In this document: piece after piece, positions 2,492 to 33,801 of the stretch
Numbering within the stretch: the first letter of the stretch is position 1
How the letters are laid out: the number at the start of each line of letters is the position of its first letter
Source of the DNA: Rhodospirillales bacterium
Lineage (GTDB): Bacteria; Pseudomonadota; Alphaproteobacteria; Rhodospirillales; Casp-alpha2
Assembly: GCA_021775105.1 (NCBI GenBank)
Contig: JAJFIJ010000137.1
Location: forward strand, 1-33,801
Direction of reading: 5' to 3'
DNA: 33,801 bases
Notes under the pieces: model-generated
Database searches by the model: none
Seen by the model: only the letters and a program-made list of their open reading frames with translations
Told to the model about the DNA's origin: nothing
Position numbers and translations under genes: made by a program

Positions 2492-3165
2492 CAGAACAAC
2501 CTCATCTTTGCACGGAACAGATACCGACCGGCCAATCCAAGAATGGACGTGGCAGCCACTGTCAGCACGATGTAAAATCCTGCTGTGATGGAAAATACTT
2601 CAATTGAACGGAATGTTTCCGCGTTGATGTTAAAGGCCCGCCCGGTCAATTCCTCTACGCCGAATATAGCTGCCATTGATGTTCCCAGTGTCATGAGAAT
2701 GTACTGGTTGGACAAAGGCGGGAACAATACCCTTGCGATATGCGGCATAACGACATATCGCACACGCTGTATCAGACTCATTCCCAGAGTCTCCGCCGCT
2801 TCCATTTCATTACGATGCACGGACTCGAACCCGGCGCGCTGAATTTCGGTAAGATAAGCACCGGCATTCAATGTCATGCCAATGAGCACAGCTTCATAAG
2901 ATGTGAATAAAATTCCTGCGTCCGGCAGGGCAAAATAGATAAAAAAAATCTGCACGAGCTGAGGGGTGTTCATAAAAAATACGATGTACGAATTTGTCAC
3001 TCCTCTTGATATCGGCCCGCCAAAGGTTTTGGCCATGGCACCAAACATACCAATGACCATACCCCCGCAAAATGCCAAAAACGCAATTTGCAAACTGATC
3101 CAAGCGCCTCCTGCCATATAGGGAAGGTATTCGGTAACCTGACCGAATTGCAGTGTGTAACTCAT
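2491..3165 (-). CDS. ABC transporter permease, HisQ/GlnP type (first subunit)
   Basis: This is a 224-residue integral membrane protein with the canonical EAA loop of polar amino-acid permeases (AAETLGMSLIQRVRYVVMP, then FPPLSNQYI). Hydrophobic spans lie at roughly residues 15-45, 57-80, 90-110 and 185-210. It is the first permease gene after the binding protein, separated from it by 88 bases that carry a GC-rich hairpin. The ATG start is the only sensible one in frame. Together with the neighbouring permease, ATPase and binding protein it completes a four-component importer. Confidence 0.9.
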   Translation of the reverse strand: MSYTLQFGQVTEYLPYMAGGAWISLQIAFLAFCGGMVIGMFGAMAKTFGGPISRGVTNSYIVFFMNTPQLVQIFFIYFALPDAGILFTSYEAVLIGMTLNAGAYLTEIQRAGFESVHRNEMEAAETLGMSLIQRVRYVVMPHIARVLFPPLSNQYILMTLGTSMAAIFGVEELTGRAFNINAETFRSIEVFSITAGFYIVLTVAATSILGLAGRYLFRAKMRLF

Positions 3166-3205
3166 GACGTTTCTGCCTCTGCTTCAGCACTTGACCAGCG
3201 AAATG

Positions 3206-3236
3206 CCGCCGCCTGACAGGGAGTATCAGGCGGCGG
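3206..3236 (-). promoter_or_regulatory. Intercistronic GC-rich hairpin between binding protein and permease genes
   Basis: An 11-base perfect inverted repeat (CCGCCGCCTGA / TCAGGCGGCGG) with a 9-base loop lies in the short gap between the binding-protein stop and the first permease start. It has no following T-run on the minus strand, so it is not a standard intrinsic terminator. Hairpins at this position in importer operons commonly stabilise the upstream message, giving more binding protein than membrane subunits. That role is inferred here. Confidence 0.6.
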
Positions 3237-3253
3237 TCATCTGGTCAGACAGC

Positions 3254-4066
3254 CTAGAAGTAAGGCGACGGGCTGACGCTGAACAACATGTCAATGCCGA
3301 ACCACTTCTTCCAAGTATCATCAATGAACCCTCCGCGATGAAGTTCAAAGAGAGCAACATTGAGCCAATCCTTCAAGCTGCTGTTTCCCTTGGCGACGCC
3401 GAGAGCGCAGAAGTAAACATTAACCGGTGCCTTCACCACATGCCATTTGGTGTTTTTGTATTTGTTCATGTGTTCGCCAACGAAATCGATCACATCAATC
3501 ATGGCATCACCCCGGCCTTGCGCCAAGGCACGGACAGCATCCGGATAGTTATCAAGCAACAGGACTTCAGCTTTGGAAACATTGTCCTTGATAAACTTCA
3601 ATGGCGTCGTTCCGCGAACCTGAACAAGCTTGACGCCAGCAGCATCCAGGTCTTTGTAGCTCTGGTAAGGTTTGCCTTCAGTCGTCAGGACACCAAAGAC
3701 TTCGGTGTGAGCGGGAACAGTGAAATCGATAATTTTTGCGCGCTTGGGATTGCGGGTCATCGCACCCATAACATAGTCGATTTTCCCGGAGGCCACGAAC
3801 GGAATGCGATCCGGCGACCCGACTTTAACAATTTCAAGCTCAACACCCAACATTTCTGCGAGTTTTTTTGACAGGTCTACATCAAAACCAACAATTTCAT
3901 TTTTTTCGTTATATTTCCCAAGTGGCGGCAAGGTAGGGTTTACCCCGACAATAAGTTTTTTGGACGACAAAATTTCATCCAGGGTGCGGGCCTCACCAGA
4001 AACCGGCGACAGGATTACAGCAACTGCAAAAGCGGCAACCACAGTCTTCATCAGATACTTAAACAT
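3254..4066 (-). CDS. Periplasmic binding protein of a polar amino-acid-type ABC importer (SBP_bac_3 family)
   Basis: The 270-residue product starts with a Sec signal peptide (hydrophobic residues about 8-24, ending near VSGEA). A family-3 solute-binding fold follows: LIVGVNPTLPPLGKYNEK at the start of lobe 1, then GFDVDLSKKLAEMLG, then DYVMGAMTRNPKRAKIIDFT. The NPKRAKIIDF segment is characteristic of amino-acid and opine binders. The ATG has a very good AGGAGG site immediately upstream. It is the first gene of the minus-strand operon and faces the divergent dehydrogenase operon across an AT-rich region. By position the likely ligand is the substrate of the dehydrogenase: an amino acid, imino acid or opine-like N-substituted amino acid (inference). 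Confidence 0.9.
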   Translation of the reverse strand: MFKYLMKTVVAAFAVAVILSPVSGEARTLDEILSSKKLIVGVNPTLPPLGKYNEKNEIVGFDVDLSKKLAEMLGVELEIVKVGSPDRIPFVASGKIDYVMGAMTRNPKRAKIIDFTVPAHTEVFGVLTTEGKPYQSYKDLDAAGVKLVQVRGTTPLKFIKDNVSKAEVLLLDNYPDAVRALAQGRGDAMIDVIDFVGEHMNKYKNTKWHVVKAPVNVYFCALGVAKGNSSLKDWLNVALFELHRGGFIDDTWKKWFGIDMLFSVSPSPYF

Positions 4067-9665: not shown

Positions 9666-10304
9666 TCAGGAGCCTGTAACGATCTTGAGAACATCCTTCT
9701 CGATATTCTTCAAGTGGCGCAAAATTGCCTTCTCTGCAGCCCGGGCATTCCCATCTGAAAGAGCCTTTAGAATTGAAAGATGCTCGTCTGCATCAGCGTC
9801 GGCACGATCAAAGGGACGGCCTATTTCAAATAACTGCGTTGTAATTCGAAGCCGTCGTATATTATCGGCCAGCACTTCATTTTTCCCGACTTCTGCCAGC
9901 CAGTCATGTAAATCACTATCCAGGTGCCAGTGCGCTGCACCTCGGACATCTTCTTTCAGCAATTCCTGGATGCGTTCTTGAAAGGCCTGGATATCAGCCT
10001 GTCCTGCCTTGCCAATTGCCAAACTAGCCGCCTTGGTTTCCAGATATTGACGGACTCTCAGACTTTGAAAATACTCAGTAGCATTGACTTGCCGCACGGC
10101 AAATGAACGGCCCTTTTTCTTAACCAGAAACCCCGCGCCCTCTAGTCGAACCAGAGCTTCCCGCAGCGGGGTTCGGGTTGAACCAAGTATCTTTGCAAGC
10201 TGACTTTCAACTAGCACATCCCCACCCGCCAATTGGCGGTTAACGATCATGTCGCGGACTTTTAGAAAAGCTTTGTCGGAAAGAGAATCGTTGTTATTAT
10301 CCAT
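9666..10304 (-). CDS. GntR-family transcriptional regulator, FCD subfamily
   Basis: The 212-residue protein has an N-terminal winged helix (SQLAKILGSTRTPLREALVR, about residues 36-56) and a C-terminal all-helical FCD ligand domain. The metal-site residues of FCD domains are visible: Asp and His in LDSDLHDWL, His in DEHLSIL and His in ILRHLKNI. FCD regulators typically repress catabolic genes and are released by the pathway substrate or an intermediate. The gene converges on the dehydrogenase operon with only 28 bases between stops and no clear terminator. By position it probably controls that operon, and perhaps the divergent importer, through the AT-rich sites at 4180 and 10415. Confidence 0.9.
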   Translation of the reverse strand: MDNNNDSLSDKAFLKVRDMIVNRQLAGGDVLVESQLAKILGSTRTPLREALVRLEGAGFLVKKKGRSFAVRQVNATEYFQSLRVRQYLETKAASLAIGKAGQADIQAFQERIQELLKEDVRGAAHWHLDSDLHDWLAEVGKNEVLADNIRRLRITTQLFEIGRPFDRADADADEHLSILKALSDGNARAAEKAILRHLKNIEKDVLKIVTGS

Positions 10305-10545
10305 TGTATCTTCAGTCTATAAAAATAGCAGGCTACGGCAAGCCAGACCTAAATATTCTTCCGTTAAAAAGTAAAATAATTAATTAGAATTCTTTCGCCA
10401 ACTAGAATGACATAATTGTATATAATATATATATGATTTTAAAGATATTCTTACAGCTTTAACGATTTGGAACGTCAGTTAAATCTAGTTTTATGTCCGA
10501 TATTTATGATGCAATTCTGCCTTGTCAAAGGAATCTTTGTATTTA
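10305..10545. other. AT-rich non-coding region upstream of the GntR gene
   Basis: No coding sequence is visible. The region holds the promoter of the GntR gene and a near-palindrome, ATTGTATATAAT at 10415-10426 (five of six pairs). This contains the TATATAAT core also found twice in the 4180-4203 site. A GntR autoregulatory site here is plausible but unproven. Confidence 0.45.
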
Positions 10546-19387: not shown

Positions 19388-20317
19388 ATGAAACAATTGC
19401 GAGGAACTTATACGGTCATCGTCACACCGTTTACGGAAGACAACTCTCGGGTCAACGAAACTATGCTCAGGTGGTTGGTCGATTTTCAAATTTCTGAAGG
19501 AATTCACGGTATCATTACGCTCGCCAGTAACGGTGAATTTCTGTCCTTGTCCGACGAAGAACGTCATGATGTGGCGCGGATCGTTGTTGAACAGGCGAAC
19601 GGACGGGTGCCGGTTGTTGTCGGCACAGCCGCCGAAAGCACTACCGATGTGATCCGTTATACGCAAGATGCTGAAAGTGTCGGCGCTGACGCCGCCATGG
19701 TGTTAACGCCCTACTATTGCTGGATCGACGAAGATGAGATTTTTGAACACTATCGGCGCATTGCCGAAGCCACATCGCTGCCGATCATGCTCTACAACCA
19801 CCCGGCTTCGACGGTCTTGGATATGAAGCCGCCGCTGGTCGCGCGCTTGGCCGACATCGACAACATCTCTTATATCAAGGAATCGACCACCGACACACGC
19901 CGCGTTTATCAAATTAATGATCTTTGCGGCGACAAGATCACCGTCTTTGCCGGCTACCTCGGCTATGAAAGTTTCATGGTCGGTGCCGAGGGTTGGGTGT
20001 CGGTGTGCGCCAACATCTTACCCCGAAAATCGGCTCAGATGTTCGAATTGGCCGTCGACCAAAACGACAAGGACGCTGCATGGGTTGTTTTCAAGGAACT
20101 TGTGCCGCTCATCGATTTCCTCGGTGATCATCTCTATGCTCACGGCATGAAAGCGGCATTCAGAATGCTCGGCCGCGATATGGGCGACCCACGCCCGCCG
20201 CGCCTGCCCATGCGGCCGGAATTGGAAGCTCCGCTGCGCAAGGTGATGGACGACCTCGGACTGTTCGATCAGGAATTACCCCCGGTCGAAGAATATTCCA
20301 ATATCGCAGCTCAGTAG
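19388..20317 (+). CDS. DHDPS/NAL-family lyase (second of three)
   Basis: The 309-residue protein is a DHDPS-family TIM barrel with Schiff-base lysine K164 (YIKEST) and catalytic tyrosine Y136 (MLYNHP). The pyruvate-carboxylate loop reads LASNGEF instead of GTTGE, which argues against a biosynthetic DapA role. It aligns without gaps over most of its length with the third DHDPS-family protein at 22731, including the shared FAGY segment and GDPRPPRLP near the C-terminus. The pair therefore arose by duplication. A GAGG motif precedes the ATG at slightly long spacing. It is the first gene of a long plus-strand array and divergent from the phosphotriesterase-family operon. Cleavage, dehydration or deamination of a 2-oxo acid is the expected type of reaction. 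Confidence 0.9.
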   Translation: MKQLRGTYTVIVTPFTEDNSRVNETMLRWLVDFQISEGIHGIITLASNGEFLSLSDEERHDVARIVVEQANGRVPVVVGTAAESTTDVIRYTQDAESVGADAAMVLTPYYCWIDEDEIFEHYRRIAEATSLPIMLYNHPASTVLDMKPPLVARLADIDNISYIKESTTDTRRVYQINDLCGDKITVFAGYLGYESFMVGAEGWVSVCANILPRKSAQMFELAVDQNDKDAAWVVFKELVPLIDFLGDHLYAHGMKAAFRMLGRDMGDPRPPRLPMRPELEAPLRKVMDDLGLFDQELPPVEEYSNIAAQ

Positions 20318-20346: not shown

Positions 20347-21858
20347 ATGACCGAACGGCCATTTAGCGTTATCCGCGGTGGTCGTCTGCTTGACGGTGGC
20401 ACATTGGATGGCAAGCATGGTGATATCCTCATCGAAGGCGATGTGATCCGTGAGGTTGGGCCGGCCAGCTTGGGGGTACCCGATGATGCTAAGGTGATCG
20501 ATGCGACAGATCAGCTCCTGACGCCAGGTCTTGTCAACGCTCACACCCATGGCGACGTGAGCATGGCTAAGGGATTGGGAGACCGGCTCAGTTTGGAATT
20601 GCTGCTGAATGCCTCACCTCTGACCAGTGAGACATTTCGTCTTGAGGACAAATACCTGGCAGCCAAACTTGCCGCAACGGAAATGGTCCTGTCAGGCTGC
20701 ACGGCCTGTTACGATCTGTTTTCAGAATTTCCCATACCGTCACCTGAGGGTCTGGCCGCAGTCGGTCAGGGATATGCGGATGTCGGAATACGTGCCGTTG
20801 TTGCGCCGCTGATGGCAGATCGCAATTTTTGGCAGGCCATCCCCCATTTGCTCGAAGCACTGCCGGAAAATTTACGATCCCAGGTCGACAAAACGCAAGC
20901 CAATCCGGCCGAGGCTTCGATCGAAGCCTGCCGTCAGGCGTTGGACGGTTGGACCATTGATCGCGAACAGGTCCGTCTGGCCCTGGCACCGACTATTCCG
21001 CACCATTGCGAACCATCCTTCTTTCGTGCCTGTCGGGATTTGTCCAATGATTACGGCGCGGCCATCCATACCCATGTCGCGGAATCGAAAGTCCAGGCTG
21101 TTGTCGGCTTTAAGAAATTCGGTAAAACGCTGACAGCGCATCTGGATGATCTCGGCGTGATTGGCCCCAACTTTACAGCGGCACATGCCGTATGGGTTGA
21201 TGCCGACGATATTAAGCTCCTAGCCGACAAAGGCGCGTCGGTGGCACACAACCCGTCCAGCAACCTGCGTCTAGGCGCCGGAGTTGCGCCCGTGAGGGCG
21301 ATGTTGGATGCCGGGTTGAATGTCGGTGTCGGCACGGATGCCAGCACATGTGGGGATGCGTTGAATATGTTCGAGGCCCTGCGGCTGGCGAATTATCTCA
21401 GCCGGTTAAATACACCCGATCCGGACAAATGGTTGAATGCCAAAACAGCTCTCTCGATGGCCACGGAAGGGAGCGCGCAGGTGCTCGGTTTCGAGGGACT
21501 GATCGGCAGACTGCAACCCGGTTTCAAGGCGGACATTGTGTTTCTCGATTTGCGCCGTATTCAGTATCTGCCTTTCAACAATGCGGTGCGTCAGGTGGTC
21601 TATCAGGAATCTGGTACGGCGGTGTTGCACGTCATGGTCGGTGGGCGTTTTATTGTCCGTGACGGTCGAATTAAAACCGTCGACTACGACGGACTGCGGC
21701 GCGATGTTGATCGGTTGAATGATCGCCTACATAATGAAACACAGGAAGCGAAGCTACTGGTGAGCCAGTTGGAAGGGGTTGTTGGACACTTTTGCGTCGC
21801 TCTTGCCAAGCAGCCCTATCACGTTCATCGTTATATCGGCATGCCGCCGGAAACGTGA
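20347..21858 (+). CDS. Amidohydrolase-family deaminase (SsnA/MtaD/creatinine deaminase-like)
   Basis: The 503-residue protein shows the amidohydrolase architecture: an N-terminal beta-sandwich piece, then the barrel with H66-x-H68 (GLVNAHTHGD). The pattern of a mononuclear deaminase follows (IHTHVAES with His and Glu, AAHAVW, VAHNPSSNLRLG, GTDAST). VAHNPSSN plus GTD is characteristic of aminohydrolases acting on N-heterocycles (guanine, S-adenosylhomocysteine, cytosine, creatinine). It would convert a C-NH2 group to a carbonyl with release of ammonia. It starts 29 bases after the preceding DHDPS-family gene with no clear Shine-Dalgarno. The C-terminal tail, about residues 460-503, is longer than usual and unassigned. 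Confidence 0.87.
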   Translation: MTERPFSVIRGGRLLDGGTLDGKHGDILIEGDVIREVGPASLGVPDDAKVIDATDQLLTPGLVNAHTHGDVSMAKGLGDRLSLELLLNASPLTSETFRLEDKYLAAKLAATEMVLSGCTACYDLFSEFPIPSPEGLAAVGQGYADVGIRAVVAPLMADRNFWQAIPHLLEALPENLRSQVDKTQANPAEASIEACRQALDGWTIDREQVRLALAPTIPHHCEPSFFRACRDLSNDYGAAIHTHVAESKVQAVVGFKKFGKTLTAHLDDLGVIGPNFTAAHAVWVDADDIKLLADKGASVAHNPSSNLRLGAGVAPVRAMLDAGLNVGVGTDASTCGDALNMFEALRLANYLSRLNTPDPDKWLNAKTALSMATEGSAQVLGFEGLIGRLQPGFKADIVFLDLRRIQYLPFNNAVRQVVYQESGTAVLHVMVGGRFIVRDGRIKTVDYDGLRRDVDRLNDRLHNETQEAKLLVSQLEGVVGHFCVALAKQPYHVHRYIGMPPET

Positions 21859-21904: not shown

Positions 21905-22561
21905 ATGGCAGGGCAAAAAAAACCAGGATCAAATAACCAGAAGGGAGGATTGTCCCGGGTCGCTTATGATTACGTGCTTGAGCGCATTGTCAGCCGGGAA
22001 CTGGCAAGCGGTACAATCATCCAGGAACGCAAATTGGCCGATTCTCTCGGCGTCTCGCGCACGCCCATGCGTGAAGCTTTGGGGCGTCTGGAGGGAGAAG
22101 GTTGGCTGGTTCGCCTGACCGACCGATTGTTGTCGGTCAAGGTCGTCAGCATAGATGAATATCTGCAGGCCTTGCAGGTACGCCGATTGCTGGAACCCCG
22201 TGCAGTTGTTCTGGCAACGGAGCGTATGGACAAGAAGGATCTGAAAAAAATCCGGACCGAAGTAATGGCGCTACGCAATCACAAGAACCCGGGCTATGAT
22301 TTACATTGGGCGGTCGATGATAATATACACGGTGCCATATCAAAGGGTTGCGGTAACGCCATCATGGCGTCCGTAATTGCCGACCTGAGGCGCTTGACCC
22401 AATTGTTTGAAATCCAGACCATTCCGCGACGCATCAAGCCCGGTTGCGCCGAACATCTCGCTATATTGGATGCCATGATCGCTGGCGACGCGGAAGAGGC
22501 AAGCGCTGCCATGCGCCTGCATCTTGAACATGTACGTGCCGGGGTCATGGACGACCTTTAG
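21905..22561 (+). CDS. GntR-family transcriptional regulator, FCD subfamily (second)
   Basis: The 218-residue protein has a winged helix (RKLADSLGVSRTPMREALGR) and an FCD domain with the Asp/His ligands DDNIHGAI, CAEHLAIL and LHLEHV. It is recognisably related to the regulator at 9666 (both contain the RLTQLFEI/RITTQLFEI type segment). The ATG at 21905 is preferred because the HTH lies at the usual distance; an earlier in-frame ATG at 21779 lies inside the amidohydrolase gene. It lies within the plus-strand array, 46 bases after the amidohydrolase, and 88 bases before a perfect 16-base palindrome that it probably binds. Local autoregulation and control of the downstream TRAP/hydantoinase genes are inferred. 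Confidence 0.9.
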   Translation: MAGQKKPGSNNQKGGLSRVAYDYVLERIVSRELASGTIIQERKLADSLGVSRTPMREALGRLEGEGWLVRLTDRLLSVKVVSIDEYLQALQVRRLLEPRAVVLATERMDKKDLKKIRTEVMALRNHKNPGYDLHWAVDDNIHGAISKGCGNAIMASVIADLRRLTQLFEIQTIPRRIKPGCAEHLAILDAMIAGDAEEASAAMRLHLEHVRAGVMDDL

Positions 22562-22649
22562 GGCCGGGGCCAGACGCCGAGCTGGGTCGTCGGCGCGCTC
22601 CTCGGGCGAATCTACTTGCCCGGCGACGTGAATGTGTGTCAAAGTATAC

Positions 22650-22665
22650 AAGTGGTATACCACTT
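22650..22665. promoter_or_regulatory. Perfect 16-base palindrome, probable FCD-GntR operator
   Basis: AAGTGGTATACCACTT is a perfect inverted repeat centred on TA. The TGGTATACCA core is the form bound by many FCD GntR regulators. A partial second GTATAC-like half (AGTATACA) lies immediately to its left at 22643-22650. It sits 88 bases after the GntR stop and 65 bases before the GTG start of the next DHDPS-family gene, where a promoter would be expected. I did not find a convincing -35/-10 pair. Confidence 0.75.
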
Positions 22666-22730
22666 AATCATGCGAAGGCATGTTGTGGACTGGAACACCA
22701 TCGCTTCTCCGGGGAGGATCGATACCGGTC

Positions 22731-23627
22731 GTGGATAATTTTGAAGGCAGTTTTACCGTTATGGTGACGCCCTTTACGGAGGGTGGTGACAACGTTGACG
22801 TGCTGGCATTGCAGCGGTTCGTCGATTGGCAAATCTCTGAGGGCGTGCCGGGCCTTATACCCTTGGGCAGTACGGGTGAATTTCTTTCCATCACCGGGAA
22901 TGAGCGCGTCCAGATCGCCGAAACGGTGATCAAGCAGTCCGCCGGTCGTGTGCCCGTCCTGATCGGAACCGCGGATGAATGGACGGACAACGCCATCGCC
23001 TTCAGCCGCGAAGCGGAAGGCCTTGGCTCCGATGGTGTCATGGTCGTGCCGCCCTACTACTCCAGCCCGACCGACGACGAATTGTTTGTCCACTACAAAC
23101 GCATCGCCGAAGCCATCTCCATTCCGGTGATGGTTTACAACAATCCGAATACGGCAAACGTCGATCTCAGTCCAGCGCTCATCGCGCGCATGGCCGAGGT
23201 CGACAACATTCTCTACATCAAGGAATCCAGTGGTGATATCTCCCGGGTCCGGGAGATCACAAATCTGGCCGGCGACAAGATGACGGTCTTTGCCGGCTAT
23301 CATCCCTGGGAATCAATTCGCTTGGGTGCCAAAGGATATGTATCTGTGTTTGGTAATATCCTACCGCGATTGTCGGCCGATCTCTACGCGTTGTCATCGA
23401 AGGATGAAACGGCGCTGCAAGCCCGCGATCTTTATCACCAGGTGTTGCCGTTGATGAATGCCATATCGGGCGACCTTTACGTCTCGGCGACCAAGACGGC
23501 TCTTCGTCTGATCGGTATGTCCACCGGTGATCCAAGACCGCCCCGCCTACCCCTGCCTGACGCCAATGTCGCGTCGCTGCGGCAGGTTCTATCCAAACTA
23601 AACGTTCTCGATGACAAGGCCGCGTAA
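22731..23627 (+). CDS. DHDPS/NAL-family lyase (third of three)
   Basis: The protein of about 298 residues has Schiff-base lysine K164 (YIKESS), catalytic tyrosine Y136 (MVYNNP) and a GSTGEF carboxylate loop, numbered from the GTG start. This start was chosen because it makes the N-terminus align residue for residue with the paralogue at 19388 (seven residues before the TV[IM]VTPFTE segment). GGGGAGG lies 13 bases upstream, a long spacing. An ATG at 22680 would add 17 unrelated residues. The GSTGE loop is closer to canonical DHDPS/KDG aldolase enzymes than the LASNGEF of the paralogue, so the two probably act on related but different 2-oxo acids. It leads into the TRAP importer genes 48 bases later. 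Confidence 0.9.
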   Translation: MDNFEGSFTVMVTPFTEGGDNVDVLALQRFVDWQISEGVPGLIPLGSTGEFLSITGNERVQIAETVIKQSAGRVPVLIGTADEWTDNAIAFSREAEGLGSDGVMVVPPYYSSPTDDELFVHYKRIAEAISIPVMVYNNPNTANVDLSPALIARMAEVDNILYIKESSGDISRVREITNLAGDKMTVFAGYHPWESIRLGAKGYVSVFGNILPRLSADLYALSSKDETALQARDLYHQVLPLMNAISGDLYVSATKTALRLIGMSTGDPRPPRLPLPDANVASLRQVLSKLNVLDDKAA

Positions 23628-23675: not shown

Positions 23676-24659
23676 ATGAAGAAACTTTTATCAGCAACGA
23701 TAATCGGCGCCATCAGCCTGATAGGCGCGACACTGAGTGGACCGGCTCTGTCGGCAGAAATCGTCCTCAAAGCTGGACATTCGCAAAATGCCGGAGAGCC
23801 CATGGATCTTGGGCTGAAGATGATCAGCGAACATCTTATGAAGGCCACAGGCGGAAAAGCTGAAATTCAGGTTTTCCCGAATATGCAGCTTGGCGGTGAA
23901 GTGGAAATGATCAAGCAGGTGCTGACGGGCAGCCTGGATATCACGTCGCCTTCAAACGCGCCGCTGACCAACTTCGTGCCGGAACTGAAAATCTTCGACA
24001 TGCCGTTCCTGTTCCGCGACGAAGATCACATGATCAAAGTACTGCGCGGCCCCGTTCTGCAAGACATCAACAAGATCGTCTCGAAGCGCGGCATTCGCCT
24101 GCTTGGCGTCTACAATGTCGGTGTCCGCCACATCATGAGCAAGAAGCCCGTCAAGACCATCGAAGATATGCAAGGCCTGAAAATTCGGACCATGCAGAGC
24201 AAGTACCACATGGCCGCCTTCAATGCCTTTGGCGCCAACGCCACGCCGATCAGCTACGCTGAACTATATTCCTCCCTGCAAACCGGCGTAGTTGACGGTG
24301 CGGAAGCTGCCAATACCAACTACTTCGGAAAAAAGTTCTACGAAGTCGCTCCCTATTGGGGCCAGGTCGGCTGGACCATCCTGACCGCGCCGATCATCAT
24401 GTCGGAGAAGAAGTTCGCCAGCTTGCCCGCCGATGTGCAATCTGCGTTGATTGAAGGTGGTAACAAGGCGGCTGCCTGGGAACAGGATCATTACGCAGCC
24501 ATCGACAAGAAGCGCCTTGGTGCGCTGAAGGAAAAAGGTGTGACAATCACCAAACTGGATACCATACCGTTCCAGAAAGCCGCCAAGAAAGTGCATGACG
24601 AATTTTTGACATCCGATGACGAAAAGCGGATTTTGAAAATGATCCAAGACACCAAATAG
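23676..24659 (+). CDS. TRAP transporter substrate-binding protein (DctP family)
   Basis: The 327-residue protein begins with a Sec signal peptide (MKKLLSATIIGAISLIG, cleavage after ALSA). DctP-family sequence follows: LKAGHSQNAGEPMDLGLK, LTGSLDITSP, DMPFLFRDEDHM, and the conserved arginine-bearing KIRTMQSKYHM segment that normally clamps the substrate carboxylate. The ALQ/SSLQTGVVDGAEA motif is also present. It would capture a carboxylate-containing solute in the periplasm and deliver it to the membrane pair encoded next. An AAGGAG motif lies 9 bases before the ATG. The ligand cannot be predicted from sequence alone; TRAP ligands include C4-dicarboxylates, sugar acids, ectoines and 2-oxo acids. 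Confidence 0.93.
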   Translation: MKKLLSATIIGAISLIGATLSGPALSAEIVLKAGHSQNAGEPMDLGLKMISEHLMKATGGKAEIQVFPNMQLGGEVEMIKQVLTGSLDITSPSNAPLTNFVPELKIFDMPFLFRDEDHMIKVLRGPVLQDINKIVSKRGIRLLGVYNVGVRHIMSKKPVKTIEDMQGLKIRTMQSKYHMAAFNAFGANATPISYAELYSSLQTGVVDGAEAANTNYFGKKFYEVAPYWGQVGWTILTAPIIMSEKKFASLPADVQSALIEGGNKAAAWEQDHYAAIDKKRLGALKEKGVTITKLDTIPFQKAAKKVHDEFLTSDDEKRILKMIQDTK

Positions 24660-24731
24660 ACCTCTCCCGTTAGACGCCGTGGTCGGTCGGGACTCCCCTT
24701 GTAAATTCTCAGGGGACTCCCTGGCTGGCCA

Positions 24732-24756
24732 CAGTGCGGTTACAATGACCGCACTG
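24732..24756 (+). promoter_or_regulatory. Intercistronic hairpin after the TRAP binding-protein gene
   Basis: A perfect 9-base inverted repeat (CAGTGCGGT / ACCGCACTG) with a 7-base loop lies in the 127-base gap between binding protein and small permease. No T-run follows. It probably limits read-through or protects the upstream message, as is common after TRAP binding-protein genes. That function is inferred. Confidence 0.55.
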
Positions 24757-24786
24757 AATTTCAGAAGATTACTGCAGGGGGAATAG

Positions 24787-25314
24787 GTGGACAAAGCAAG
24801 GCCCATTCTCGGCAAAACCGTCCATGTGCTGCGCACCGCTGTCGAATGGATTGTGGTCGCCTGCTTCATCTATATGACCTTGGCCGTCCTGGCCCAGGTC
24901 TTCGGGCGCTACGTATTCAATTATTCCATTTCCTGGACCGAGGAGACCGCCAAGTTCGCGCAAACCTGGGTCGTGCTCATGGGCGCCGGCATCACCATGC
25001 GCCGCGGGCTGCACGTGGCCGTCGATGTCCTTGCCGCCATGCTGCCGCTAGGTCTTCGCCGCGCACTGTTGTTGGTGGTTGTCTTCGGCTGTCTCTGGTT
25101 TTTGGGCATCGTCATCTACGGCAGCATTCCGCTGCTCGAACTGGGCTGGATGTTCGAAACCTCCCCGGTGCTTCAGGTTCCCATGTGGATTATCTACCTG
25201 TGCTTGCCGTTCGGGGCTGTTTACTTCGGCATTGAAATTGTCTTGTCGGTGATCAAGCGTTGGGATGACCCGTTCACCCAGCCAGCGCCGTCAGACGCGA
25301 GTAGCGCGTCATGA
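24787..25314 (+). CDS. TRAP transporter small permease (DctQ family)
   Basis: The 175-residue protein has four hydrophobic segments (about residues 17-38, 55-75, 90-115 and 130-155). It carries the family marks FGRYVFNYSISWTEE and RRGLHVAVD. It pairs with the large permease in the inner membrane. The start codon is GTG, preceded by a purine-rich AGGGGGAATAG. It overlaps the large permease start by 4 bases (ATGA), showing translational coupling. Confidence 0.92.
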   Translation: MDKARPILGKTVHVLRTAVEWIVVACFIYMTLAVLAQVFGRYVFNYSISWTEETAKFAQTWVVLMGAGITMRRGLHVAVDVLAAMLPLGLRRALLLVVVFGCLWFLGIVIYGSIPLLELGWMFETSPVLQVPMWIIYLCLPFGAVYFGIEIVLSVIKRWDDPFTQPAPSDASSAS

Positions 25315-26597
25315 TATTTGCCTTTTCCGCGTTCCTGGTTTTTCTCGCCATCGGCACACCCATCGTCTTTGTGCTGGGTATCGCCGCCACGCTGACGTTG
25401 ATGCTGACCCAGCCAGACATCCCCATCACCATCGTCACGCAACGTATCTACGACGGGCTGAATTCTTTTACGATCATGGCGATCCCGTTTTTCGTTTTTG
25501 CCGGCACGATCATGGATGCGGGCGGCATCTCCCGACGCATTGTCGATTTTGCCACCGCCATCGTCGGCTGGATTGTCGGCAGTTTGCTGATGGTATCCGT
25601 GGTGGCGGCAACGAGCCTGGCGGCAATCTCCGGGTCCGGATCGGCGGATGTAGCCGCGATTTCAGCAATCATGCAACCGGAACTGCGGCGTCGTAAGTAT
25701 GATATCGATTTCTCCGCCGCCATCATCGCCTGTGCCGGATCGCTGGCACAGATCATCCCGCCGAGCCTGATGATGGTCATTGTCGCCCTGGTTTCCGATC
25801 TTTCCGTCGGTGCCATGTTCCTGGCTGGCGTCATACCCGGGCTGATGACCGTGCCCGGACTTTTGGCCTCGGCCTACATCCACGCGCGGCGCGGCGGACC
25901 GCAATACCGCGAAGTGCAGCCCTTTACCATGGAGCGGCTACGCAAATCTTTCTTGGCCGCCATCCCTGCGCTCGGCATGCCGGTGATCATTATCGGCGGC
26001 ATCATCGGTGGCGTGTTTACGCCGACGGAAGCCGCCGCCGTGGCGGTTCTGTACGGTCTGTTGATCGCCTTGTTCGTTTATCGCGACCTGAAGGTCCGGC
26101 AATTGCCGGGGCTGATCCTGCAAGCCGCAGCCCTGTCGGCAGCCGTCATGACAATCATCGGCACGGCCAGCATCTTCGGTTGGTTGGTAGCCAGCGCCAA
26201 CGTGCCGGCGCATTTGGCCGCCTGGATCAAAACCATCACCTCCCAGGCCTGGACTTTCCTTATTCTGGTCAACGTGCTGCTCATGCTGATCGGCATGTTC
26301 ATGGAGAGCTTGGCGGCGATCCTCATTTTGGTCCCGGTACTCATGCCCATCGCCATCAGCTTCGGCATCGATCCCATCCACTTCGGCTTGGTCGTCGTCA
26401 TGAACTTTGCCATTGGTATGGTGACGCCGCCTTATGGTATCACGCTGTTCGTCGCATCCAGTGTTGCGGAGCGTAACATCATCCAGGTTTCGCGGCGCAT
26501 CTTCTGGCCGTGGCTGATGATGACCCTCATTCTATTGCTCGTCACCTTCGTCCCCGAGATCGGCCTGTTCCTGCCGCGCCTCGCGGGCCTGTTATAG
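25311..26597 (+). CDS. TRAP transporter large permease (DctM family)
   Basis: The 428-residue protein is almost entirely hydrophobic with about 12 membrane segments and typical DctM motifs: IPFFVFAGTIMDAGGISRRI, ATSLAAISGSGSADVAAI, IIPPSLMMV, GIIGGVFTPTEAAAVAVLYG and MVTPPYGITLFVASSVA. It uses the sodium gradient to move the solute across the inner membrane with its small partner. The length is normal and no breaks are seen. The hydantoinase gene follows after 12 bases, strongly suggesting that the imported solute or its product is a hydantoinase substrate. Confidence 0.94.
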   Translation: MIFAFSAFLVFLAIGTPIVFVLGIAATLTLMLTQPDIPITIVTQRIYDGLNSFTIMAIPFFVFAGTIMDAGGISRRIVDFATAIVGWIVGSLLMVSVVAATSLAAISGSGSADVAAISAIMQPELRRRKYDIDFSAAIIACAGSLAQIIPPSLMMVIVALVSDLSVGAMFLAGVIPGLMTVPGLLASAYIHARRGGPQYREVQPFTMERLRKSFLAAIPALGMPVIIIGGIIGGVFTPTEAAAVAVLYGLLIALFVYRDLKVRQLPGLILQAAALSAAVMTIIGTASIFGWLVASANVPAHLAAWIKTITSQAWTFLILVNVLLMLIGMFMESLAAILILVPVLMPIAISFGIDPIHFGLVVVMNFAIGMVTPPYGITLFVASSVAERNIIQVSRRIFWPWLMMTLILLLVTFVPEIGLFLPRLAGLL

Positions 26598-26609: not shown

Positions 26610-28052
26610 ATGACCAAATTCGACCTGATCATCAAAGGCGGCCGCGTCGCCACGGCTGCCGACGTCTTCCATTGTGATATCGGCATCAAGGATGGCCGCA
26701 TCACTGCCCTGGCTGATAATCTCGACGGTGCGGACGAGGTGATTGATGTAGCTGGCGCGACCATAACACCGGGTGGTGTCGATGCCCATTGCCACCTGGA
26801 TCAACCGTCCATGGACGGCTCTGTGTGCGCCGATGATTTTACTTCTGGGACACGTTCGGCCGCTGCCGGCGGTACGACAACAGTGATTCCCTTCGCCTTG
26901 CAAATGCGTGGCCTCAGCCTCAAGGAAGCCGTCGACGACTACCACAAGCGTTCCGATGGCAAAGCCTTGGTAGATTACGCCTTCCACCTGATCGTCACCG
27001 ACGCAACACCGCAGGTCTGCGGCCAGGAACTACCAGCGTTGCTGCAGGATGGCTATTCATCGTTCAAGATTTATATGACCTACGATGACCTTAAACTCGA
27101 CGACGGCCAGATCCTCGACGTCCTGGCCGTCGCCCGCCGTCATCAAGGCATGGTGATGATCCATGCTGAAAACAGCGAATGCATAACCTGGCTGACGGAC
27201 AAGCTGGAGCAAGCCGGCAAGTTGGCACCGAAATACCATGCGACGTCGCGGCCCGGCCCGGTCGAGCGCGAAGCCACTCACCGTGCGATCACATTGGCGG
27301 AATTGATCGATGTTCCCATCCTCATCGTTCATGTGTCCTCAGAACAGGCAGTTCAAGAGATACAACGCGCGCAGCGCCGCGGCCTAAAAATTTATGGCGA
27401 AACGTGCCCACAATACCTGTTCCTCACCGAGGACGATTTAGATAAGCCCGGCTTCGAGGGTGCCAAGTGCATCTGCAGCCCGCCCCCCCGGGATAAGGAA
27501 AACCAACAAGTGATTTGGGACGGATTGACCAACGGTACGTTCCAAGTGGTGTCGTCCGATCACGCACCCAGTCGCTATAACGACCCGCAAGGCAAGATGT
27601 TGCAGGGGACGGAAGCCTCTTTCCGTATCGTGCCGAACGGCATCCCGGGGATTGAAACCCGCCTTCCGCTATTGTTCTCTGAAGGCGTTGGCAAGGGGCG
27701 CATTGATCTGCAAACTTTTGTCGCCCTGACCGCGTCGAACGCCGCTAAAATATACGGCCTCTACCCGCGCAAGGGCACCATTGCGGTCGGCGCTGATGCG
27801 GATATAGTTATCTGGGATGATCATCGGAAGGTCACGATCACCAACGATATTCTCCACCATAACGTCGACTATACGCCCTACGAAGGTATTGAGGTGACCG
27901 GTTGGCCGCGCACGGTACTCAGTCGTGGACAAGTTGTCGTTGAGGATGGTGAGGTCAAAGGCAAAGCCGGCCACGGCCAGTTTCTGCCATGCGATCCGCC
28001 GGAGAAAGCCGCGCCCCTTGGCCGGTCCGTGACGGATTTCCAACCCGCATAA
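26610..28052 (+). CDS. hydA: Dihydropyrimidinase / D-hydantoinase
   Basis: The 480-residue protein has all the dihydropyrimidinase metal ligands: H60-x-H62 (DAHCHLD), the carbamylated lysine K153 (FKIYMTYDD), His in MIHAEN, His in VHVSSE and the catalytic Asp in SSDHAPSR. It hydrolyses cyclic ureides (5,6-dihydropyrimidines, hydantoins) to N-carbamoyl amino acids. Length and end (the ADIVIWD beta-sandwich return) are normal for the family. A GGGA lies 9 bases before the ATG. It is the last gene of the TRAP array. A hydrolase of the class that removes the carbamoyl group begins at 33219, about 5 kb further on. Allantoinase is a less likely alternative because the PPPRDKENQ segment and YMTYDD lysine motif favour dihydropyrimidinase. 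Confidence 0.92.
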   Translation: MTKFDLIIKGGRVATAADVFHCDIGIKDGRITALADNLDGADEVIDVAGATITPGGVDAHCHLDQPSMDGSVCADDFTSGTRSAAAGGTTTVIPFALQMRGLSLKEAVDDYHKRSDGKALVDYAFHLIVTDATPQVCGQELPALLQDGYSSFKIYMTYDDLKLDDGQILDVLAVARRHQGMVMIHAENSECITWLTDKLEQAGKLAPKYHATSRPGPVEREATHRAITLAELIDVPILIVHVSSEQAVQEIQRAQRRGLKIYGETCPQYLFLTEDDLDKPGFEGAKCICSPPPRDKENQQVIWDGLTNGTFQVVSSDHAPSRYNDPQGKMLQGTEASFRIVPNGIPGIETRLPLLFSEGVGKGRIDLQTFVALTASNAAKIYGLYPRKGTIAVGADADIVIWDDHRKVTITNDILHHNVDYTPYEGIEVTGWPRTVLSRGQVVVEDGEVKGKAGHGQFLPCDPPEKAAPLGRSVTDFQPA

Positions 28053-29865: not shown

Positions 29866-30085
29866 CGCCTGCAATTCCAAAAGGATTTGTTGATGTGATG
29901 ATAGTGTCTGAAGATTACGTCATGCACAACGAGGGCATTGTTAAAGGAGAGCGGTCATATTGTTCAACTGGCGTACATATAATATACTAATTAAATTCTT
30001 ATTACATACATATGATATTCGTGGAATAAATAATTTTCTGACCTCGACACAGCAACTAATTTTGAACAGCTTTATGGAGTTGATC
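29866..30085. promoter_or_regulatory. Divergent regulatory region between aldo/keto reductase and GntR genes
   Basis: The 220-base gap has no gene. It contains GTACATATAATATAC at 29973-29987, an imperfect palindrome (five of seven pairs), and CATATG within 30009-30014, in AT-rich surroundings. These are candidate sites for the adjacent FCD GntR regulator. Confidence 0.4.
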
Positions 30086-31144: not shown

Positions 31145-31954
31145 GGGCACTGTCAGAGGAAACAAACTTGAGTCATCAATGCTTGTTTCGTAGCTTCTCG
31201 AGATGAGAAACCCATTCCGTTACTTCAAGACTTCACCCGAGATTATTCGCTTGGCAGTGATGATGTATATTCGTTTTCCTCTGTCGCTGCGGCAGGTCGA
31301 GGATCTGCTCCACGAACGCGGCATCGATATTTGCCATGAGACGGTGCGTGCATGGTGGAACCGGTTCGGGCCAGTGTTTGCGGCAGAGATTAGGAAAAAG
31401 CGAGTTGAATCTGCGCGGATTCATATCCAATGGCGTTGGCACCTTGATGAGGTATTTGTTCGAATTAGTGGTGAAACTCACTACCTCTGGCGCGCCATTG
31501 ACCACGAAGGAGAAATCCTGGAGGCGTTTGTTACCAAACGACGGGATCGCAAGGCAGCATTGAAATTCCTACGTAAAACAATGAAACGTCACGGGCTTCC
31601 TAAAGCAATTGTTACTGACAAACTTCGGTCTTACCGAGCCGCTATGAAGGTGATCGGAAATGAGGTTATTCAAGAGACAGGAAGATGGCTTAATAATCGG
31701 GCTGAGAACTCACATCAACCATTCCGACGACGAGAATATGCGATGGCAAGATTTCGAGACGCAAAGGCGTTGCAGATATTCGCTTCAATTCACTCGTCAA
31801 TTTACAACCATTTCAACCATGACCGGCATTTAGTTCCCCGCAATATTTTCAAAGAAACCCGGTCTGCTGGCCTAGCTGAATGGCGTCAATTCGCCGCTTG
31901 ATATTTATTGATCAGAGCATGCGCAGGCGCACTGCTATTTCTCTGACATCGCCC
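31145..31954 (+). mobile_element. IS6-family insertion sequence, apparently complete
   Basis: The element is 810 bases, the normal IS6 size, with one transposase gene. The left end GGGCACTGTCAGAGGAAAC and the complement of the right end GGGCGATGTCAGAGAAATA agree at 14 of 19 positions, giving imperfect terminal repeats. The flanking 8-mers (CTCGCTCA and CAACTAAC) do not match, so there is no target duplication. That is compatible with cointegrate-type IS6 transposition followed by recombination, or with age. It separates the third GntR gene and repeat tract from the LysR gene. Confidence 0.8.
31203..31901 (+). CDS. IS6-family transposase
   Basis: The 232-residue protein is a full-length IS6 transposase. 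It has an N-terminal helix-turn-helix (SLRQVEDLLHERGIDICHET) and the DDE catalytic core with D82 (WHLDEVF), D139 (IVTDKLRSY) and E168 (NNRAENSHQP). The W-R-AID strand between D82 and D139 is also typical. No frameshift or missing catalytic residue is seen, so it may be active. The ATG has no strong Shine-Dalgarno, which is common for transposases. Confidence 0.93.
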   Translation: MRNPFRYFKTSPEIIRLAVMMYIRFPLSLRQVEDLLHERGIDICHETVRAWWNRFGPVFAAEIRKKRVESARIHIQWRWHLDEVFVRISGETHYLWRAIDHEGEILEAFVTKRRDRKAALKFLRKTMKRHGLPKAIVTDKLRSYRAAMKVIGNEVIQETGRWLNNRAENSHQPFRRREYAMARFRDAKALQIFASIHSSIYNHFNHDRHLVPRNIFKETRSAGLAEWRQFAA

Positions 31955-33218: not shown

Positions 33219-33801
33219 ATGGACGATATTCAAATTAACTCGGACCGTCTGTGGGCGAGCCTCATGGAGATGGCGGAAATCGGTGCGACCCCGGCGGGCG
33301 GCGTGTGCCGGCTCACGCTCACAGATCTCGCCCGTGAATCCCGTGATTTGTTCATAGCGTGGTGTGAGGACGCGGGTTGCGTGACCCACTTCGATACCGT
33401 CGGCAACATATTTGCGCGTCGCCCCGGCACCGATGAAAACCTGCCGCCCGTCATGACCGGTAGTCATCTCGACTCTCAACCTACAGGCGGAAAGTTCGAC
33501 GGCACTTATGGAGTTCTCGCTGGCGTTGAGGTGATCCGCACCCTCAATGAGCATGAGATTGAAACCGTTGCGCCCGTGGAAGTGGCCGTATGGACTAACG
33601 AAGAGGGATGCCGGTTTACACCCTCCATGTCAGGCTCCGGCGTATTTTCCGGGGTCTATGATCTCGATTTCATCCTCGCGCGCGAGGATGAAAACGGTGT
33701 CAGTATCGGTGCTGAATTGGAGCGTATTGGTTATGCGGGAACCACGCCCACGGGTGAGCGGGCAGTTGCCGCGTATTTCGAGGCCCATATCGAGCAAGGC
33801 C
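33219..33801 (+). CDS. M20-family Zn-dependent hydrolase, N-carbamoyl-amino-acid/allantoate amidohydrolase class (runs off right edge)
   Basis: The first 194 codons are present. They contain H83 in GSHLDSQPTGG, the bridging D94 (KFDG), the Glu pair E128/E129 (WTNEEG) and H190 (EAHIEQG). This is the ligand set of the beta-ureidopropionase, allantoate amidohydrolase and N-carbamoyl-L-amino-acid hydrolase branch of M20. The enzyme would remove the carbamoyl group as CO2 and ammonia, the step following the dihydropyrimidinase at 26610. All expected ligands up to the edge are intact, in contrast to the M20 protein at 13839-15008. The ATG has GGGG four bases upstream and another purine-rich site (CAGGAG) further back. 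The C-terminal half is outside the window. Confidence 0.88.
   Translation, partial: MDDIQINSDRLWASLMEMAEIGATPAGGVCRLTLTDLARESRDLFIAWCEDAGCVTHFDTVGNIFARRPGTDENLPPVMTGSHLDSQPTGGKFDGTYGVLAGVEVIRTLNEHEIETVAPVEVAVWTNEEGCRFTPSMSGSGVFSGVYDLDFILAREDENGVSIGAELERIGYAGTTPTGERAVAAYFEAHIEQG

Follow-up and report, generated by a model that had tools for sequence, protein, structure and literature searches.

Putative operator with GTATAC boxes 11 bp apart between an FCD-type GntR gene and a DHDPS-TRAP-hydantoinase operon in a Rhodospirillales bacterium

The palindrome AAGTGGTATACCACTT at 22650–22665 of the 33,801-nucleotide stretch analysed here (the window) is part of a site that is likely the operator of the adjacent FCD-type GntR protein (gene at 21905), with phased boxes placed before a DHDPS-TRAP-hydantoinase operon. 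Judged by comparison with related loci, it is probably a real, functional operator of an ordinary class. The sequence, spacing, conservation and synteny of the site were computed, and the credibility of the putative operator rests on its conservation.

Structure of the site and its gene neighborhood

The regulator gene (21905–22561, plus strand) encodes a protein of 218 aa with an N-terminal GntR helix-turn-helix (Pfam, 5.1e-15) and a C-terminal FCD domain (2.7e-22), both above the Pfam curated cut-offs. It reached the cut-off of no NCBIfam model and fits no equivalog, and among solved structures 7xp0 is the closest to it in sequence (E 7.2e-22). Upstream of it on the plus strand lie a first DHDPS-family gene (19388–20317) and an amidohydrolase gene (20347–21858). 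The first gene behind the site, also on the plus strand, encodes a DHDPS-family lyase (22731–23627; 66% identical in genome G038), whose GTG start was picked by similarity to relatives and by the preceding GGGGAGGA. It is followed on the same strand by the TRAP transporter genes DctP, DctQ and DctM (23676–26597) and by a D-hydantoinase/dihydropyrimidinase gene (26610–28052), which scored 790.6 bits against NF009941 (cut-off 647) and 560.5 bits against TIGR02033 (cut-off 393.25). The opposite strand carries an M20 peptidase-like gene and a gene for a 988-aa fused flavin oxidase. The window contains three DHDPS-family genes between 8675 and 23627 and three FCD regulator genes (9666, 21905 and 29960); the 9666 gene is preceded by sarcosine-oxidase alpha/beta-like genes and a class-III aminotransferase gene, and an IS240/DDE-type transposase gene (31203–31901) separates the third FCD gene from a LysR gene.

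The 16-bp perfect palindrome described in the initial annotation was confirmed, and its center, GTATAC at 22655–22660, is the central box of the putative operator. The adjoining element AGTATACA (22643–22650) is also present; it had been described as a half, but contains a second complete, self-palindromic GTATAC box at 22644–22649, located 11 bp from the central box. The unit is therefore GTATAC-N5-GTATAC, with cores 11 bp apart. A right-hand box is missing in the window, where only one of the six positions matches. The central TGGTATACCA has the form of the palindromes of the FadR subfamily (TKGT/ACMA boxes with GT and AC separated by 2–3 nt), the separation here being 2 nt. The earlier assignment to the type of site recognized by FCD-GntR proteins was borne out: the neighboring gene encodes a GntR protein with an FCD domain, the core reads GT-2nt-AC, and such sites recur beside homologous regulators.

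In 100 simulated windows, generated by a first-order Markov chain derived from the window, perfect palindromes of at least 16 bp occurred at a mean of 0.74 per window, and 51 of the 100 contained at least one. The window itself includes a perfect 26-bp palindrome, TTTCATCCTCGCGCGCGAGGATGAAA, at 33668–33693 and a perfect 18-bp palindrome at 20912–20929 within the amidohydrolase gene, both longer than the one at 22650–22665. Symmetry by itself is thus not beyond chance; the feature that exceeds chance is the two-box unit together with its location.

Conservation of the box spacing

Related loci included four orthologues (53–72% identity) from named metagenome-assembled genomes. The genome searches, each of which included the own genome, gave 8 of 297 in the order (E ≤ 1e-40), 2 of 385 in the class (1e-45) and 5 of 398 in the phylum (1e-38), and 15 of 27 plasmid records were taken. 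L025 and L105 were counted as one contig (G038), as were L026 and L106 (G017). The resulting set used for statistics comprised 31 loci with 38 regulator homologues, selected on protein alone.

The conserved unit in these loci consists of two or three GTATAC-like boxes with a pitch of 11 bp. Exact GTATAC was found 21 times in the 29,682 bases within 450 bp of the regulators versus 17 times in 291,066 bases of these loci further away, a 12-fold higher density (Fisher p 1.2e-12; regulator genes excluded), in a comparison that overstates independence because the loci are partly related. Half of the regulators (19/38) had an exact GTATAC within 450 bp and the other 19 did not. When neighboring sites were merged and the window was excluded (n = 19), 16 sites had, to one side or both, a second box (at least four of the six GTATAC positions) exactly 11 bp away, whereas each of the other distances from 7 to 25 was represented by 0–4 of the 19. 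Right-hand boxes at +11, in the orientation of the locus, accounted for 15 of the 19 sites. Among the 17 GTATAC sites further from the regulators, 8 likewise had a second box at this distance. The L025 and L028 sites in this group are operon sites before TRAP/DHDPS genes, and on partial inspection several of the eight look like regulon sites.

A particularly clear counterpart is found in genome G253, where a 28-bp perfect palindrome with three boxes, TTATACAAGTGGTATACCACTTGTATAA, is located about 80 bp behind the regulator gene and precedes DctP-DctQ-DctM-DHDPS-hydantoinase-M20-oxidase genes, all in one direction. The window shares 21 bp with G253 and 19 bp with locus L028 at the matching place; the sequence common to L028 and the window, GTATACAAGTGGTATACCA, stands in L028 before DctP-DctQ-DctM-DHDPS. 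In G716, a three-box site lies before DctP. In G038, the operon is set apart from the regulator by a PTE gene in reverse orientation and by other sequence; GTACAC-ATTTG-GTATAC stands before the DHDPS-DctP-DctQ-DctM-hydantoinase genes, whose proteins are 66–88% identical to those of the window, and a second copy of the site is found beside the PTE gene. This arrangement implies that the site is tied to the start of the operon rather than to the regulator gene's end. A TRAP/DHDPS operon is thus preceded by the site in G038, G253, L028 and G716. In A. vitis and Aureimonas, the site precedes an ABC solute-binding gene, and in L026 and L027 it is flanked by the regulator and a divergent gene (2749–3618 and 2714–3589, respectively) that was read from its sequence as encoding an ABC solute-binding protein. 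Two Rhizobium plasmid loci, spotted by eye, have GGATCC as the central box with the left and right boxes still at 11 bp.

The position of the site, 89 bp behind the stop codon of the regulator gene, and one terminator-like match here on the minus strand could be taken to mean that the palindrome works at the RNA level, for instance as a terminator hairpin downstream of the regulator gene, and is not a protein site. This is very improbable: relatives keep the boxes at 11 bp even where the arms are not complementary (G716 and G038), and the site remains with the operon start when other genes intervene. An intrinsic terminator was rejected, since no match to a stem-loop followed by a T run was found on the strand of the regulator and the conservation pattern also speaks against it.

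A matrix built from the sites of 12 relatives, with the window omitted, gave the window site a score of 28.8 versus 11.1 for the best non-overlapping place in the window. Among the ten best places per strand, there was no operator copy before the upstream DHDPS/amidohydrolase pair or before the M20 gene. The best hits outside the site (11.1) were AT-rich stretches of the type GTATAT or GTACAT-N5-ATATAC at 10410–10440 and 29965–29995. They adjoin the FCD regulator genes at 9666 and 29960 and may be the operators of those regulators or mere AT-rich sequence.

The genome-wide scan for the motif that the initial annotation had proposed as a check revealed no enrichment over reversed controls in the own genome (a 4.98-Mb draft of 389 contigs, 90.5% complete and 5.3% contaminated). 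TGGTATACCA was found at 4 places versus 2 for the reversed control, and the 16-mer, allowing up to three mismatches, at 9 versus 21. The pattern GTAYAC-N5-GTATAC, with up to two mismatches, was rarer than its reversed control (70/67 versus 184/172); without mismatch it occurred at only two places in the draft genome, the window site and C24:30622. We therefore claim no large regulon. The other occurrences of TGGTATACCA were on contigs C10, C15 and C132; the one on C10 fell inside an ORF called by a simple ORF picker, and a scan for boxes at 11 bp in C15 and C132 returned none with 11 or 12 matches. The place on C24 (30614–30646; L022 and L076) is a 33-bp inverted repeat, TTCAGTTAGTA-N11-TACTAACTGAA, which holds GTACAC-N5-GTATAC and lies upstream of another FCD gene.

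Across the order, an 18-mer scan with up to two mismatches matched 8 of 297 genomes versus 17 of 297 for the reversed control, so that the pattern alone is not enriched. Exact matches were confined to the own genome and G253. Four of the eight matching genomes (G000, G253, G172 and G211) had the match beside a regulator homologue; for the matches in G016, G023, G041 and G188, no FCD domain was found in the eight neighboring ORFs tested. That the palindrome is a chance sequence would agree with the number expected per simulated window and with the lack of genome-wide enrichment of the 10-mer and the 16-mer. Nevertheless, this reading is barely credible in view of the 21-bp and 19-bp identities at the matching place, the 11-bp spacing signal and the difference in matrix score between the site and the rest of the window.

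Candidate binding protein and control of the operon

In the relatives, the link between regulator and operator is the co-occurrence of the sites with homologous regulator genes. The phylogenetic tree of the regulators grouped that of the window with five others (91/89, below the star threshold of the tool), and all six members of this group have a site, placed either close to the regulator or where an operon begins. Over the whole tree, the presence of a site was not clustered (179 of 500 shuffles gave values as low).

The operator could also be bound chiefly by another FCD regulator, such as the product of the nearest paralogous gene in the window (9666–10304, 37%), or be shared by both proteins. 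The three FCD genes of the window and the eleven FCD matches in the genome leave room for such a binder, as do divergent regulator pairs near one operon in G172, G211, A. vitis, Aureimonas and two Rhizobium loci. We nevertheless consider it quite unlikely. Searches with the 9666 protein in G038 and G017 (E ≤ 1e-30) gave the 21905 orthologue as the sole match, yet both genomes contain the site, and the site adjoins the 21905 gene and its orthologues. The 21905 protein is therefore favored as the binder. In L071, L072 and L091–L094, two homologous FCD regulators transcribed divergently stand before an ABC/DHDPS/oxidase operon, and such pairs possibly have common operators.

The initial annotation had further proposed an internal promoter that separates the control of the genes downstream of the site from that of the first two enzyme genes. 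Separate control agrees with the position of the site, which in G038 stays before the DHDPS-TRAP-hydantoinase operon. The promoter itself was not recovered, as no sigma-70-like promoter was recognized in 22500–22800. In 8 of 12 sites before operons, a TTG element noted by eye (CTTG in seven, GTTG in one) precedes the TATNNN of the left box by 16–18 bp. At this spacing, TTG is absent in the window, G253, L028 and G716, and the CTTGCC of the window (22615–22620) is too far away for a usual spacer. A scan of offsets placed the top mean -35 score at +13 (the left box itself looks like TTGACA there) and not at the left box, for which 3 of 12 sites reached four of six positions with a 17-bp spacer. 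TATACA at 22645–22650 is a possible -10 element. If the TTG element and the left box do form a promoter, the left box would be the -10 element and the central box would contain the transcription start; bound regulator would then cover the promoter.

The same TTG spacing raises the alternative that the left box is merely a promoter -10 element which the regulator does not contact, the operator being the single central dyad. This appears unlikely, as the right-hand boxes at +11 (15 of 19 sites) cannot all be -10 elements, and the best left boxes are those of the window, G253 and L028, which have no TTG at that spacing. An operator of phased boxes bound by the 21905 protein remains the preferred reading.

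The identity of the binder, repression, promoter position, inducer and stoichiometry are what we infer from here on. The regulator would most likely bind as one dimer to the central TGGTATACCA, and the neighboring box or boxes (the window has two boxes in all, relatives as many as three) may strengthen binding by way of a second dimer or additional contacts, the 11-bp pitch being close to one helical turn. Control of the DHDPS-TRAP-hydantoinase operon would most likely be by repression, with the bound regulator covering the promoter of the uptake and hydrolase genes; this is read from the relatives, since no promoter was recognized in the window. Repression would be lifted once the FCD domain takes up a small carboxylate from the pathway, perhaps one derived from hydantoin-like cyclic amides. 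D138, H142, H184 and H206 are invariant in seven aligned homologues. By analogy with the metal-ligand set of one Asp/Asn and three His given in the available part of the Atu1419 literature (PMC7797058), they suggest a metal-bound carboxylate effector. Neighboring genes in the plasmid loci are annotated as hydantoinase/carbamoylase amidase and 5-oxoprolinase, or as allantoinase PuuE, a weak hint that the ligand comes from cyclic amides.

Relationship to known GntR operators

The UxuR operator consensus has TGGTATACCA at its center. The site shares this center, and the A. vitis site reads AATTGGTATACCAATT, but the regulator is a different one: the Uxu operon regulator model gave 26.8 bits against a cut-off of 442. 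Additional boxes 7–12 nt from the operator center, of open function, have been described for 23 groups of GntR regulators by Suvorova et al. 2015 (PMC4494728), whose available text also gives the GT-2nt-AC spacing for part of the FadR subfamily. The present site therefore belongs to a known kind. As far as that text goes, the published additional half-sites are weaker and variable in distance, whereas the present sites have a constant spacing of 11 bp and an extra box can equal the central one. Within this kind, the site is distinguished by its strict pitch.

Two FCD-type regulators offer further comparisons in the available portions of their reports. Escherichia coli NanR binds a (GGTATA)3 operator cooperatively as three dimers (PMC8012715). 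The similarities are an FCD-type GntR protein, repeated boxes containing GGTATA and control of uptake and lyase genes, with repression being presumed in the present case. The NanR boxes, however, are described as direct repeats read asymmetrically by one dimer, whereas those studied here are self-palindromic and 11 bp apart. Three close direct GGTATA repeats were not found in the window, which has two self-palindromic boxes, and the NCBIfam NanR model gave the 21905 regulator 54.6 bits against a cut-off of 260. Atu1419 of Agrobacterium fabrum is a tetrameric regulator described as recognizing a 10-bp palindrome, ATGTATACAT, with the same GTATAC core, which overlaps the -10 element (PMC7797058). 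Its two palindromes are 190 bp apart and joined by looping, unlike the 11 bp found here. HypR, an FCD regulator that controls hydroxyproline use in Streptomyces, has a different motif according to the available description. Our literature search found no paper joining GGTATACC with GntR and none combining GntR, hydantoinase, TRAP transporter and dihydrodipicolinate synthase; on half-site or tandem GntR boxes, it found only PMC4494728.

A bolder proposal is that these sites constitute a distinct class of FCD operators, in which two or three self-symmetric boxes at one helical turn carry dimers stacked on one face of the DNA, the left box serves as the -10 element and the whole acts as a cooperative switch. 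We regard this as conceivable but doubtful. If true, it would represent a cooperative switch for the uptake of cyclic-amide-like nutrients in proteobacteria. The analysis offers an operator and a target operon that can be tested for a regulator outside the NCBIfam equivalogs, one whose relatives are found next to transporters of the TRAP or ABC type, lyases of the DHDPS family, hydantoinases and fused flavin oxidases. For the additional half-sites published for GntR operators, which are unexplained, it supplies a precise case with a fixed 11-bp pitch, in which cooperativity can be tested.
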